Shown: piece after piece, positions 3-43,434 of the stretch
Position numbering within the stretch: position 1 is the first letter of the stretch
How the letters are laid out: each line of letters opens with the position of its first letter
Assembly: GCA_903934875.1 (NCBI GenBank)
Contig: CAIZPP010000104.1
Coordinates: 1 to 43,652, forward strand
Length of the DNA stretch: 43,652 nt
Source of the DNA: an uncultured Methylococcaceae bacterium
GTDB taxonomy: Bacteria > Pseudomonadota > Gammaproteobacteria > Methylococcales > Methylococcaceae
Reading direction: 5' to 3'
Position numbers and translations under genes: made by a program
Notes under the pieces: generated by a model
What the model was told of the DNA's origin: nothing
Database searches by the model: none
Seen by the model: the letters and a program-made list of their open reading frames with translations, nothing else

Positions 3-140
3 CTGATGTTACGCAACCGTGTAGGCTGTAGCCCGGATGTTGTGGAGTGCGGCGACTCGTCGCCGCCTTTTGCGTCCAGCGGCGACGAGTCGCCGCACTC
101 CACAAGTTGCCATCCTCTAGCGATGACTGCGTAACGTCAG
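3..140. mobile_element. Small inverted-repeat element (family 2) carrying a REP hairpin pair
   Basis: The stretch begins with CTGATGTTACGCA (3-15) and ends with its near-perfect inverted copy TGCGTAACGTCAG (128-140). Its interior holds two inverted hairpins of the GTGGAGTGCGGCGAC type at 42-66 and 79-103. Two other copies of the same termini occur at 15185-15311 and 18853-18982, each with a different hairpin pair inside. There is no reading frame for a transposase, so this is a non-autonomous element moved in trans, if at all. The left flank is cut by the window edge, so a target duplication cannot be tested here. Confidence 0.75.
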
Positions 141-3793: not shown

Positions 3794-5014
3794 CTACCGC
3801 TTTAGAATGGCCTCTCCCCTAGCCAATTTCGGTAATTGCCCCCCCAAACCCATCGCGTATTTCATCGCCAGCTTCTTCGCCGGCGCAATCCGCTCGGCCA
3901 GCCCCAAGCCGATGTTGCGCAGCAATTTCAGCGGCAATTGCGAATTGCCAAAGACGCGGTAAAACATATCCATTGTCGTCATCATCAGCAAATTATTCTG
4001 GCGGCGCATTTTCTCATAAGCATACAATACCGCAGCCGCGCCTATGTCCTTGGAGGCTTGTTTCGCGGCAACCAGCACCTCAGCCAGCGCGGCGGCATCC
4101 AACAGGCCGATGTTGACGCCTTGGCCTGCCAAGGGATGGATCATATGGGCGGCATCGCCAATCAAGGCCACACCCTCTTTGACATAGCTTTGGGCGTGTT
4201 GGCGGCGTAGCGGGAAACTGCCACGCGAAACGATCTGAGTAATATCGCCCAAAACCGGCGGGAAAGTCGCCAATAATTCTTGCAGCAATTCTTCGTCCGG
4301 CAGGGCTTTCAGGCGTTTGACCTCCTCCGGTTTATTATACCAAACCAAAGACGCATTGGGTCCGTCCAAAGGCAGGAAGGCCAAGGGTCCGCTGGGGGTG
4401 AACTTCTGCCAGGTGATGTCCTGCTGGCCGTAGCCGGTTGCCACCGTCAACACCAAGGCGTGTTGCTCATAATCCCAAGTATGGACCCCCATGCCGGCGG
4501 CCTGGCGCACTCGGGAAAAGCCACCGTCAGCGGCCACCAGCAAGCGCGCGGTGATAGTGCGGCCATCCTCCAAAACGATACTGGACTGGCCTGCTGTGTA
4601 ATCTATCGACTGGGTTTTCACCGGACAGAGGAAATCGACATTGTCGAACGCCTGCAAGCGGTCTAACAAGGCCAACTGGATAATGCGGTTTTCGGCAATG
4701 TAGCCCAGCACGGATTCGTTGATGTCCTCGCTGCGGAACTCGACATCGCCGCCGGCCTCCCAAACCCGCATCCGGCGGAACGGGCAAAAGCGCCGGGAGG
4801 CAATGCCCTGCCAGGCACCGATGGTCTTGAAGATGCTGGCCGAGGCAATGCTGATCGCAGAGACGCGCAAGTCGTGCGGCTGCCCAGGCTCGAAGACGGG
4901 CGGCGGTGCATCCTCCAACACGGCCACCCGCAACGGGCTACCACCCAAAGCACATCCCAGCGTAGCTCCGACCATGCCGCCACCGACGATGACCACATCA
5001 TAATGTTCGTTCAT
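3794..5014 (-). CDS. ubiF: Ubiquinone biosynthesis FAD monooxygenase, UbiF type
   Basis: A 406-residue member of the UbiH/UbiF/VisC flavin hydroxylases, which add ring oxygens during ubiquinone synthesis at the inner membrane. The FAD-binding GxGxxG is GGGMVG at residues 11-16. The DLRVSAIS block, the ADGGFSRVRQ motif and GDAAHMIHPLAGQGVN near residue 286 are the family fingerprints. Several stretches (GVHTWDYEQ, WQKFTPSGPLAFLPL, a C-terminal KYAMGLGG) match my memory of E. coli UbiF better than UbiH or UbiI, so I infer C6 hydroxylation of demethoxyubiquinol. UbiF-versus-UbiI substrate specificity cannot be proved from sequence alone. It stands apart from other ubi genes here. Confidence 0.88.
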   Translation of the reverse strand: MNEHYDVVIVGGGMVGATLGCALGGSPLRVAVLEDAPPPVFEPGQPHDLRVSAISIASASIFKTIGAWQGIASRRFCPFRRMRVWEAGGDVEFRSEDINESVLGYIAENRIIQLALLDRLQAFDNVDFLCPVKTQSIDYTAGQSSIVLEDGRTITARLLVAADGGFSRVRQAAGMGVHTWDYEQHALVLTVATGYGQQDITWQKFTPSGPLAFLPLDGPNASLVWYNKPEEVKRLKALPDEELLQELLATFPPVLGDITQIVSRGSFPLRRQHAQSYVKEGVALIGDAAHMIHPLAGQGVNIGLLDAAALAEVLVAAKQASKDIGAAAVLYAYEKMRRQNNLLMMTTMDMFYRVFGNSQLPLKLLRNIGLGLAERIAPAKKLAMKYAMGLGGQLPKLARGEAILKR

Positions 5015-5687
5015 AGCTAATGCCCTTAGTTCTCGTAATTTTTAAATTGTGCAGCAATTCTCAGTTTGAGCCAGAAACGATAAATAGAACCTCTCCGCAG
5101 GGATGCCGAAATCAAGCGACCATGGATGGCAAGCTACAGGTTACGGCAAGCCTATCGTAAGGCATGTCCGGCAACATCATTCCGTTGCCCGGCATTCCTG
5201 CCCGGAAGCCAAATGTCGGGCGCAATGCAAAGAGACACGCCCGGCAAACGGTTTTACTGACGTTATGCGTAACATCAATTGCCCATGATAAAGCATAAGC
5301 CACGGTTAAACCTATGCCAAGATCATGAAAAACGTCTTTTTACCCTAAACTGATTTGGTGATATATCAGAATTCCTAATGACTAACAAAATATTTTTTGA
5401 TTTTACTTATCCATAGATAGTGTCTATAGTGCTAACCATGCAAAAGGCTTCTTAAGCTATCTCCTAAACTTTGCGGCCAAGGATGGCTCTTTTTTGTTGG
5501 AGCTTGCCATAGAAACAGTGCGTGACGTTGACAACTTTTGCTTTGGTTTTTGATTCGAGAATCCAAAGCGAAGATTGCCACCCTTTTTTTCCACAACCAC
5601 CATAGGAGTAAACCCAGCTAAGACCAGACCCTTTATGTCACGAAGAATATTGGGCAAGAGCGAACCGTTCTAAACTGAGGTAAAAAC
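5015..5687. other. Intergenic gap of 673 bp
   Basis: No convincing gene. The stretch next to ubiF holds that gene's promoter region. At 5257-5278 there is a collapsed family-2 terminus pair: CTGACGTTA is joined directly to TGCGTAACATCAA. The rest is AT-rich with homopolymer runs (5335-5660). Short frames at 5112-5303 and 5457-5657 have no recognisable domains and overlap repeats, so I do not call them genes. Confidence 0.5.
5257..5278. repeat. Collapsed family-2 inverted-repeat ends
   Basis: Nine bases of the left terminus (CTGACGTTA) are fused to the 13-base right terminus TGCGTAACATCAA seen at 18970-18982. It looks like an element that lost its whole interior. Confidence 0.5.
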
Positions 5688-6082: not shown

Positions 6083-6107
6083 GTGGAGTGCGGCGACTCG
6101 TCGCCGC
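6083..6107 (+). repeat. Single GTGG-headed REP hairpin after the RlpA-like gene
   Basis: GTGGAGTG followed by CGGCGA-CTCG-TCGCCG, the same hairpin found paired at 42-103 and 43351-43411. Here only one unit is present, placed where a terminator would be. Confidence 0.75.
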
Positions 6108-11289: not shown

Positions 11290-11459
11290 TACAGCGTTTT
11301 TAATATCAAATAGTTACTTAAAAATAAATATATGCAAAATGTAGAAGCGGGCCATGCCCGCGAAAATAACCCACTATGCAGAATCGGCCCAATCAATCGC
11401 GGGCATGGCCCGCTCCTACGACCTAAACAAAGTAATCAATTGATGTTGAAAACGCTGTA
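11290..11459. mobile_element. Composite element: two CAGCGTTTT right ends around a REP hairpin pair
   Basis: The left boundary TACAGCGTTTTTAATATC and the right boundary GATGTTGAAAACGCTGTA are both right ends of the MITE family, in inverted orientation. Between them lie inverted GTAG-headed REP hairpins: GTAGAAGCGGGCCATGCCC (from 11341) and its partner ending at 11419. No transposase is encoded. Compared with normal 123-bp copies the interior has been replaced, giving 170 bp. The flanks begin and end with TA. Confidence 0.75.
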
Positions 11460-15161: not shown

Positions 15162-15419
15162 TACAGCGTTTTTATCTTAACAAACTGATGTTACGCATTG
15201 GAGTGGCAAAGCTCGCTTTGCCTGTCAAGGCAAGCCTTGACACTCCAAAACGAATTCGCACATCGGCAATCCTTTGCAGACAACAGCACAGGGGCCTGTG
15301 CGTAACATCAGTTAACAAAGAAAAATAATAAAGGACACTCAATCAAACCATCCTGTGTGCGAATTGCTTTGCAAAATGATATAACCCAACAAGTAACTAT
15401 CTGATATTAAAACGCTGTA
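15162..15419 (+). mobile_element. CAGCGTTTT MITE (subfamily II) split by a family-2 element
   Basis: Left end TACAGCGTTTTTATCTTAAC, right end GATATTAAAACGCTGTA. If 15185-15311 and its duplication are removed, the sequence matches the intact copy at 42661-42783 nearly base for base (CAAAGAAAAATAATAAAGG and onward). The element ends 6 bp before the uvrA start codon. Its right half contains TGATATAACCC, a possible -10 region pointing toward uvrA. Confidence 0.88.
15185..15311. mobile_element. Family-2 inverted-repeat element nested in a MITE
   Basis: Perfect 13-bp inverted ends CTGATGTTACGCA (15185-15197) and TGCGTAACATCAG (15299-15311). TTAACAAA is present on both sides of the insertion but only once in the uninterrupted MITE at 42661, so it is an 8-bp target duplication if these ends are exact. 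Inside are two inverted hairpins, GGAGTGGCAAAGCTCGCTTT and a GGAGTGTCAAGGCTTGCC-type partner (15199-15247). No coding capacity. Confidence 0.85.
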
Positions 15420-18621: not shown

Positions 18622-18879
18622 ATGAGTCAGTTCCGAAAGATAGGTGAAAATGCAAAAAATCTGGATGCTCTGAGGCTGCAACTGCGGACTAATCTAGGTT
18701 TGGTGCCGTTTGTGGGGGCAGGTTTCAGTGTTCCTTGCGGAACCTTGAACTATTTGCGCTGCGTCAGGACATTTCACGGAGCGCCAGCCCGCCATTTTGC
18801 GATATTGGAATTACCGGAAGATTTGCATGTTCAGCCACAAATTGATCAATTACTGATGTTACGCAACGAACACTTGTAG
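18622..18879 (+). pseudogene. Internally deleted SIR2-like protein gene
   Basis: The 85-residue frame starts like bacterial SIR2-like (NAD-binding) proteins: LRLQLRTNLGLVPFVGAGFS followed by VPCG, where GAGFS is the NAD-binding loop. The next part, ARHFAILELPEDLHVQ, looks like a segment normally found 150-200 residues later, so the catalytic core is deleted. The last residues (MLRNEHL) and the stop are encoded by the family-2 element that starts at 18853. SIR2-like domains often serve as NAD-depleting effectors in phage defence (ThsA, SIR2-pAgo, DSR). That is family knowledge; this copy cannot work. Confidence 0.7.
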
Positions 18880-18982
18880 GGTGGCCTTCAGGCCGCTTCG
18901 ACCTGCCTAATTCCAACGGACTTAGTTTAGCGGCCTGAAGTCCGCCCTACAACAGCCAACAAACGGCACTGCGTAACATCAA
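18853..18982. mobile_element. Family-2 inverted-repeat element with GTAG-type REP pair
   Basis: Ends CTGATGTTACGCA (18853-18865) and TGCGTAACATCAA (18970-18982). Interior inverted hairpins: GTAGGGTGGCCTTCAGGCCG (from 18876) and the partner ending TCCGCCCTAC at 18950. It truncates the SIR2-like frame. No clear target duplication is visible, perhaps because the right flank is itself a MITE remnant. Confidence 0.78.
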
Positions 18983-24510: not shown

Positions 24511-24631
24511 TACAGCGTTTTCATTTTAAATATATACCTAAAACAGACATTCAGTTAAACCTTCAGGTTAACCGAATAACCTGCGCTATCATACCCACTA
24601 CCAAGTAACTCTTTGATGTTGAAACGCTGTA
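24511..24631 (+). mobile_element. CAGCGTTTT MITE (subfamily I, divergent copy)
   Basis: Left end TACAGCGTTTTCATTTTAAA, right end CTTTGATGTTGAAACGCTG plus TA; 121 bp. The interior has its own small hairpin (GTTAAACCTTCAGGTTAACC) and differs from the copies at 29421 and 33246 while the ends agree. TA at both borders fits TA target duplication. It lies about 100 bp upstream of the RoxA-like gene. Confidence 0.85.
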
Positions 24632-42660: not shown

Positions 42661-42783
42661 TACAGCGTTTTTTCTTAACAAAGAAAAATAATAAAGGACA
42701 CTCAATCAAACCATCCTGTGTGTGAACTGCTTTGCAAAATGATATAACCCAACAAGTAACTCTTCGATATTAAAAACGCTGTA
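42661..42783 (+). mobile_element. CAGCGTTTT MITE (subfamily II), intact reference copy
   Basis: 123 bp from TACAGCGTTTTTTCTTAACA to CGATATTAAAAACGCTGTA. TA flanks both ends. There is no coding capacity. The interior matches the copy at 15162-15419 after removing its insertion, and the first 80 bp of the copy at 43435. It truncates the 5' end of the HNH gene that follows. Confidence 0.9.
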
Positions 42784-43307: not shown

Positions 43308-43434
43308 CCGGGGTTTGGTCACAGTTCAGCCCATAGGCACCGTCCGAGTCTGGAGTGCGGCGACTCGTCGCTGCATGGCTTGGAAAACGGCGACGAGTCG
43401 CCGTACTCCACAAACGCCTGAGTCTTAGAGAGTT
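43308..43434. repeat. GTGG-type REP hairpin pair
   Basis: TGGAGTGCGGCGACTCGTCG (from 43351) and the inverted CGGCGACGAGTCGCCGTACT (from 43388) form the same pair as at 42-103, here without family-2 ends. Small substitutions (CTGC, GTAC) show decay. Confidence 0.7.

Follow-up and report, generated by a model that had tools for sequence, protein, structure and literature searches.

Doublets of REP hairpins framed by transposon ends in an uncultured Methylococcaceae bacterium and in other phyla

We found that a family of short non-coding elements in an uncultured Methylococcaceae bacterium, defined by the 13-bp ends CTGATGTTACGCA, mostly encloses doublets of REP-type hairpins, and that both the doublets and the ends occur in other combinations, within the host genus as well as in distant phyla. 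We observed the shared ends, duplications of the target, a parent insertion sequence (IS) with the same ends, diversity and folding of the enclosed cargo, many-to-many pairing of cargos with shells, and insertion of shell and cargo as one unit. In our judgement, the best account, and probably the correct one, is recurrent capture of REP doublets followed by amplification by the transposase of the shell. The window, i.e. the whole stretch analysed, is a 43,652-nt contig (C104) of the host genome G000 (5.41 Mb, 344 contigs), and the MITE shell with the CTGATGTTACGCA ends, called family 2 in a preliminary description of this DNA, is named T2 here.

The T2 13-mer had nine matches in the window at up to two mismatches, compared with a mean of 0.94 in shuffled sequences, and none of 100 shuffles reached nine. 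The three elements with common ends noted in the preliminary description were all present (Table 1), the right ends of the class A and class C elements each containing one mismatch (CTGACG... and TTGATG..., respectively), and for all three the claim of unrelated interiors, each a REP-like doublet, was borne out. The pair placed earlier at 15199-15247 also exists, but is a heterodimer with the limits shown in Table 1, in which GGAGTGGCAAAG faces GGAGTGTCAAGG and a GGAGTG head is common to both halves. The composite MITE carrying a REP doublet inside different ends was as described. Two inverted REP hairpins with a GTAG/GTGG/GGAG-like head, the hallmark of REPINs, were found in the window elements and in most T2 elements of the genus, but not in the interiors of the Thiotrichales MAG BB2 (see below) and some others.

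Table 1. Positions of T2 elements and related features in the window
Feature	Position	Strand	Remarks
T2 MITE, class A cargo	3-140	+	Ends 3-15 and 128-140; REP doublet 42-66 / 79-103
Lone class A REP, no recognised shell around it	6083-6107	+	
T1 MITE with class H REP doublet	11290-11459	+	Doublet 11341-11362 / 11398-11419
T1 MITE, TACAGCGTTTT ends, split by the T2 element of class B	15162-15419	+	
Target duplication TTAACAAA, left copy	15177-15184	+	Exact, 8 bp; right copy 15312-15319
T2 MITE, class B cargo	15185-15311	+	Heterodimer 15200-15222 / 15224-15246
T2 MITE, class C cargo	18853-18982	+	REP doublet 18876-18896 / 18930-18950
T1 MITE, same subfamily, without T2 insertion	42661-42783	+	TTAACAAAG uninterrupted; paralogous empty site for the class B element
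Class A doublet outside T2	43352-43409	+	Left flank degenerate, T3-like (GGTCACAGTTCAGCCC)

Since the class B element is flanked by an exact duplication and interrupts a T1 MITE whose uninterrupted form is visible in the same window, the REP-bearing unit moved as a whole. No exact target duplication was found at the flanks of the class C element, and the class A element starts two bases inside the contig start, where a duplication is not assessable. T2 ends lie 2-3 bases inside several contig starts of the host genome (C104, C27, C44, C53, C61 and C77), with class A or B cargo where read, and near-identical T2 copies appear to have broken the assembly at these points. In addition, lone T2 ends at window position 5278 (reverse) and at position 3847 of locus L033 are followed by similar sequence (GTCTCTTTGCATTGCGCCC), perhaps the remnants of a further class of T2 element.

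In the whole host genome, T2 ends numbered 302 forward and 302 reverse at up to one mismatch (221 and 212 exact), against 0 and 1 for a reversed control. They were present in all six other searched genomes of the genus, with 7 to 191 exact ends each, and in 16 of 60 relatives overall, four of the 16 having a single match. We counted distinct T2 pairs of 30-400 bp in the sampled stretches, leaving out longer pairs, pairs enclosing another left end, ends with more than two mismatches and repeats with the same sequence and flanks, and obtained 47 elements in G000, 19 in G005, 16 in G006 and 2 in G001-G004. At least one REP-type module was carried by 46, 17, 13 and 1 of these, respectively, i.e. 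by 77 of 84, a proportion that is partly circular, as both the list of modules and the shell patterns were made with these elements already in view, whereas the fold tests given below are not. A common non-REP interior, which the preliminary description had named as the finding that would make its three elements exceptional, was sought and not seen among the sampled G000 elements. Exact duplications of at least 7 bp flanked 40 of the 84 distinct elements of the genus, as is expected of MITEs; the elements have no coding capacity, and their interiors, apart from the ends, are not IS-derived as judged by eye. The 19 distinct 138-bp copies with class A cargo in the sampled G000 stretches had a mean pairwise identity of 0.967. 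A 247-bp T2 element at L077, made up of a D doublet, F and a B doublet and flanked by its own 7-bp target repeat TTAAGGG, seems to have arisen by the joining of a D element to a B element. Two genomes of other genera, G051 and G059, carried further kinds of cargo in elements of 150-386 bp. Two reading frames, at L069 5117-5650 (resembling an acetyltransferase by eye) and at L074 2577-3650, run into T2 ends and have C-terminal TDVTH/TDVTQ stretches.

MITEs might form around any short intergenic DNA, with REPs merely being abundant there. Some T2 interiors are indeed non-REP, such as that of the element at L080 11512-11727, which has a 7-bp duplication; REPs are abundant in G000, and 39 of its 49 T1 elements are without a listed REP module. 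We regard such neutral capture as quite improbable, because REP modules predominate in the T2 elements of the genus, several shells converge on the same kind of core, and the folding of the interiors greatly exceeds that of random windows taken from the same loci, controls that were not limited to intergenic DNA. T2 interiors had a median fold z of -8.1, with 39 of 46 below -3, compared with a median of -0.79, and 6 of 39 below -3, for the T1 interiors without T2 ends or class H. As T1 spreads without a doublet and with weak folding, MITEs here do not in general require a hairpin core. Host selection, by which MITEs with bidirectional hairpin terminators are tolerated near genes so that REP-bearing versions survive, would fit the strong hairpins and the finding that at least two reading frames (those at L069 and L074) end in or just past a T2 end, but hairpin-free T1 elements were similarly numerous in the samples, and we consider this explanation unlikely.

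Inspection of the inverted repeats around doublets outside T2 in the host genus, with patterns set by eye, revealed seven further terminal-repeat shells, T1 and T3 to T8, that hold REP doublets, T7 and T8 being weakly supported. The earlier claim that REP doublets are repeatedly framed by transposon ends is thus upheld, but the phenomenon is not particular to family 2. In T1 (TACAGCGTTTT), a minority of elements contain H, F or R1; T1 elements, e.g., those at window positions 24511, 29421, 33246 and 42661, begin with TACAGCG and end with CGCTGTA, termini that would fit a TA target duplication of a mariner/IS630-type element. T3 (GGCCTTGGTCATCGTTCAGCCC) holds class A in four of five pairs, one of them loose, and the fifth is a 48-bp palindrome with an 8-bp duplication and no REP (L247). 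F or I occurs in all five T4 elements (CAATACTGTTGAATTAAG), three of which have 11-bp duplications, and R3 in all 11 T6 elements (GGGTGCGATTAAAAGTGATGC), with 9-bp duplications in 3. All 15 T5 elements (CACTGCCATTAAGTTAAG) contain I, J, R1, D, H or R3, and 10 of them are flanked by duplications of 11-12 bp. Class I was found in three of four T7 and four of nine T8 elements, with a duplication of at least 7 bp in one copy of each. The T5 duplications (e.g., at L237 4605-4740, L067 1229-1366 and L257 13171-13307) are palindromic in several copies (AAGCNGGAGCTT), and T5 is a different kind of transposon from T2. At L077, a 389-bp T5 element with an 11-bp duplication encloses the whole 247-bp T2 element together with an R3 doublet.

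Arranged by cargo, F was present in T1, T2 and T4; I in T4, T5, T7 and T8; A in T2 and T3; D in T2 and T5; H in T1 and T5; and R3 in T5 and T6. The presence of one class in several shells, and of several classes in one shell, indicates that cargo exchange is real and not special to T2.

The preliminary description had proposed a search for the same doublets outside the frame. We surveyed 0.494 Mb of G000, comprising the window and the loci L031-L070, part of which had been chosen for their T2 ends, and scored a repeat as framed when T2 ends with up to three mismatches lay within 250 bp, a loose rule under which an estimated 6% or so of unrelated places would fall beside one end by chance, so that the one-ended class is soft. 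Of 63 class A matches, 38 lay between two T2 ends, 16 beside one and 9 away from T2, some of the 9 in another shell; the corresponding numbers were 12, 6 and 0 for the 18 matches of class B and 14, 1 and 0 for the 15 of class C. Unframed copies were thus found for class A but not, within these 0.494 Mb, for B or C, and the doublets of the three window elements are mostly not free repeats in G000. In the same survey, R3 lay mostly away from T2 (31 of 38), as did R1 (14 of 18), which was matched at up to five mismatches and includes a separate tail-to-tail repeat. In a sample of G006, all three class A matches were away from T2 and 10 of 12 class D matches were at T2; in G005, class E was away from T2 in 10 of 15 cases and class F in 10 of 20, and class G was at T2, at both ends or one, in 30 of 32. 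The framing status of a REP class therefore changes between genomes.

Few bacterial repeats are as abundant as REPs, and the mechanism usually invoked for their dispersal is that of the RAYTs. Three RAYT-type genes of the Y1_Tnp family were found in G000 (L071, L072 and L073), each adjoining its own REP array (GGGAACGCCGAGCACCAGC, GGAGCGCCGAGCGTCGGC and GGAGTGCAAGGCCTGCC, respectively); class R3 is the repeat arrayed at the gene of L073, R1 resembles the array at another of them, and none of the three was tied to class A, B or C. These data bear on the idea that the interiors are palindromes that evolved inside MITEs rather than true REPs, their unframed copies being decayed MITEs. Long internal palindromes are common in MITEs generally, and classes B and C were confined to the neighbourhood of T2 ends in the surveyed part of G000. 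We find this idea very doubtful, however, because the same class occurs in unrelated shells (A in two, F in three and I in four), R3 belongs to a RAYT-associated array, and each half of a doublet forms a separate hairpin headed by GTAG or GGAG.

A route that starts from a RAYT has more in its favour, although we still think it somewhat unlikely: a Y1/HUH enzyme may have inserted REP doublets (REPINs) into small shell palindromes, after which the shell transposase spread the product. Y1_Tnp-family genes, with RAYT and IS200/IS605-like members not told apart, were present in 19 of 20 T2-bearing genomes searched. Among the copies of one T2 element in Parabeggiatoa, one arm may or may not contain an additional GTAG...CTAC hairpin (L146 and L197 compared with L177 and L166, by eye), suggesting that hairpins can be added later. 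The 48-bp T3 palindrome with its 8-bp duplication is free of REPs, the arms of classes E and G sum to about 13-14 bp (by eye), near the spacer of T2 mini elements of 41-43 bp, and REP dimers within palindromes were described by Di Nocera et al. (2013, PMC3733652), as far as the consulted part of that paper goes. The arms of class A, on the other hand, sum to about 50 bp. Mini elements with exact ends, tried as the ancestral empty form of T2, do exist but are rare, with three having gaps of 5-35 bp and four having gaps of 36-66 bp in 12 genomes, and several apparently derive by deletion from neighbours that carry REPs; two further minis with imperfect ends have 7-bp duplications (L031 17258-17300 and L080 12579-12619). 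Among the elements read, none was an empty progenitor with arms matching those of a loaded element, and T2 elements without a core seem rare. In addition, the Latescibacteria chromosome G064 contains 220 T2 ends, and a search of it for Y1_Tnp gave no match, suggesting that the shell can work without a detectable RAYT, though the REP loci of this genome are mostly one-ended. T2-framed doublets are dispersed in a unit that is bounded by T2 ends and flanked by duplications, unlike the duplication-free unit of RAYT dispersal. In G053, a gene of RAYT type adjoining a T2 end was considered as framed cargo and rejected, as the 3.2 kb read there contain one T2 end.

The enzyme expected to move T2 was found in a parent IS of about 1.1 kb, with T2 ends on both sides and an open frame, in two Gammaproteobacteria (G059, 1105 bp; G006, 1134 bp, beginning at a contig end), a Latescibacterota MAG (G063, 1107 bp) and a Bacteroidetes MAG (G068, 1109 bp). 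The MITEs thus share their ends with complete, potentially autonomous elements. Only the G068 copy (L292) is flanked by an exact duplication, TTAAATAA (8 bp). The transposase matched the NCBIfam model NF049921, "IS701 family transposase" (4.8e-105), and the Pfam models DDE_Tnp_1 (PF01609) and DDE_5 (PF13546), all over their cut-offs, and contains by eye a Y-2-R-3-E-6-K motif, which we take to count towards a DDE transposase of IS701/IS4-type. IS701 typically makes a 4-bp duplication; as we found 8 bp at the IS of L292 and 7-8 bp at the MITEs, we file the element as IS701/IS4-type rather than as IS701 proper.

A fragment of this transposase was matched in 9 of 61 genomes, namely all seven of the host genus (G003 weakly), G058 and G059, every one of which has T2 ends. 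It had no match in 8 of the 17 end-bearing genomes, four of which are those with a single T2 match, but another, G051, has 37 ends. NF049921 matched in 15 of 20 T2-bearing genomes, above the cut-off in 5, and had no match in the other 5; two complete-frame copies in G067 (L291 and L306) are without a flanking T2 pair. In G000, two contigs (C157 and C42) break off within the IS, as would be expected for a repeated sequence, and C185 contains another partial copy. At the first G000 loci inspected for a transposase, at long end pairs and single ends, the frames look by eye like ordinary genes. An end pair in G058 taken for a 1566-bp IS (L074 1028-2593) is really a T2 parent IS split by a different one, which has two reading frames and looks IS3-like; the transposase fragment of this interrupted copy led to the other IS copies. 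A related IS of G059 (L303 1432-2580) has variant ends (TAGAAGTTACGCA), suggesting that end sequence and transposase diverged together. The ends shared with the parent IS point to movement of the T2 MITEs in trans by its transposase, with which their co-occurrence is incomplete.

Scanning GTDB species genomes for two exact T2 ends 92-122 bases apart gave at least 87 stretches, with 80 loci listed. The organisms among the loci listed include Methylococcaceae, Thiotrichales, Thiotrichaceae, Parabeggiatoa, Chitinophagaceae, Hymenobacter, Cyclobacteriaceae, Saprospiraceae, Chloroflexi, Elusimicrobia, Latescibacterota, Opitutaceae and others; most of the cross-phylum records are MAGs, in which binning errors are possible, and Hymenobacter siberiensis is named as a strain. 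A 7-8 bp duplication with the consensus TTATTAA was found at 56 of the 80 loci listed, against 1.4 for mismatched flanks, and the interiors differ by lineage among these loci. Fold z was below -3 in 48 of the 80 loci listed, compared with 1.3% of 320 control windows drawn at random from the same loci and not restricted to intergenic DNA; the median was below -3 in 16 of 26 organisms among the loci listed, and the inverted-repeat score exceeded the 95th percentile of the controls in 48 of the 80. The 32 loci not below -3 include members of the Thiotrichales MAG BB2, which contributes 19 of the 80 loci listed and has a median z of -2.4 and, by eye, no GTAG/GGAG head; GMC7 and a Bacteroidales locus had z values of -0.8 and -0.9, respectively.

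Two Opitutaceae genomes contain 879 and 677 T2 ends at up to one mismatch. One of them has 595 matches to a REP that is matched once in the other, and in the former at least three different REP doublets lie within T2. The genome with 879 ends (G065, 3.9 Mb) also has 42 Y1_Tnp matches and is heavily loaded with both systems. Of 15 loci read for a TGTCATTGCGAGCG repeat in the Elusimicrobia genome G062, 10 had the repeat framed by a pair of T2 ends and 5 had it next to a single end. For a similar repeat in G064, one T2 end lay within 150 bp in 12 of 15 cases, none in 3 and both in 0; on the far side of most one-ended repeats is another conserved sequence, and framed copies exist too (L179 and L379).

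Taken as a mechanism, recurrent capture would proceed as follows. A DDE transposase of IS701/IS4-type, recognising the CTGATGTTACGCA ends and duplicating a 7-8 bp TTATTAA-like target, would move T2 MITEs in trans, and their interior would mostly be a doublet of REP-type hairpins of the classes found in that lineage. New combinations of shell and cargo would arise recurrently, each then multiplying as one unit, and several other shells of the host genus would have done likewise, making REP doublets a shared, exchangeable core of short transposons. Pre-existing REP doublets are presumably what the shells capture, although no donor locus for a captured doublet was identified. The arms between end and doublet are mostly unrelated across cargo classes, and class C alone has at least three different arm pairs (its own and those of L088, L083 and L176), suggesting repeated independent framing rather than swaps inside one interior. 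A doublet may have entered a shell in one of three ways: ends were gained close by on both sides of a REP, enclosing little flanking DNA; adjoining elements fused and lost their inner ends, as perhaps at L077; or a RAYT inserted a REP hairpin into a small shell palindrome. The hairpin core may be kept because it shortens the path between the ends of an element of about 130 bp, or because it makes insertions less harmful. A stronger version, which we put forward tentatively and think rather unlikely, is that some very short DDE transposons depend on a hairpin core, an extruded or single-stranded hairpin bringing the ends of an element of about 130 bp together, and that unrelated shells in many phyla have independently recruited the REP doublets of their hosts. 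If true, RAYT-driven and DDE-driven mobility would have REP doublets as their common currency, and this would account in part for how REP classes spread and turn over between genomes.

T2 elements share several features with known systems. BIMEs are mosaics of REPs and other motifs, as T2 elements are, but are not known to have terminal repeats with target duplications. The 13-bp ends in common with a complete IS, the duplication and the non-coding nature of T2 elements are those of MITEs of IS4/IS701-type IS, from which they differ in that their interiors are mostly REP doublets that vary between lineages. With REPINs and RAYTs, as presented in the parts consulted of Bertels and Rainey (2011, PMC3116915) and Nunvar et al. 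(2010, PMC2817692), they share inverted REP hairpins, GTAG-/GGAG-like heads and the presence of RAYT genes, whereas the mobile unit here has DDE-type terminal repeats and a 7-8 bp duplication. IS and REPs are also associated in the study of Tobes and Pareja (2006, PMC1525189), but there, in the sections consulted, the REP is the target, and here it is inside the element. The closest case is that of Di Nocera et al. (2013, PMC3733652), whose consulted sections describe REP dimers inside conserved palindromes, GTAG-15 in A. variabilis and CGTC-1 in H. neapolitanus; palindromes without REP were not found in these two organisms, a topic not pursued in those sections. In both studies, REP dimers are regularly enclosed by an unrelated inverted repeat, but those sections give one palindrome per REP family and read it as an insertion target, whereas here the inverted repeats are transposon ends with duplications, T2 has a parent IS, one shell holds many REP classes and one class occurs in several shells. 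The earlier statement that no such system had been described thus needs qualification: palindrome-framed REP dimers were known, and transposon shells with exchangeable cargo are not reported in those sections. The open-access literature, as far as it was covered, contained no account of transposon ends with REP doublets as their exchangeable cargo; the T2 end string was matched there only under a reovirus title, and the REP motif strings were unmatched.

Many REP doublets here spread as part of a cut-and-paste transposon, one whose parent IS is recognisable and whose ends are identical in several phyla, suggesting that the dispersal of REP repeats does not depend on an enzyme of their own alone but can also be brought about by ordinary transposons of the cut-and-paste kind. 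This gives a testable route for the spread of REPs without a matching RAYT, and a natural test case for whether hairpins help very short transposons to move.
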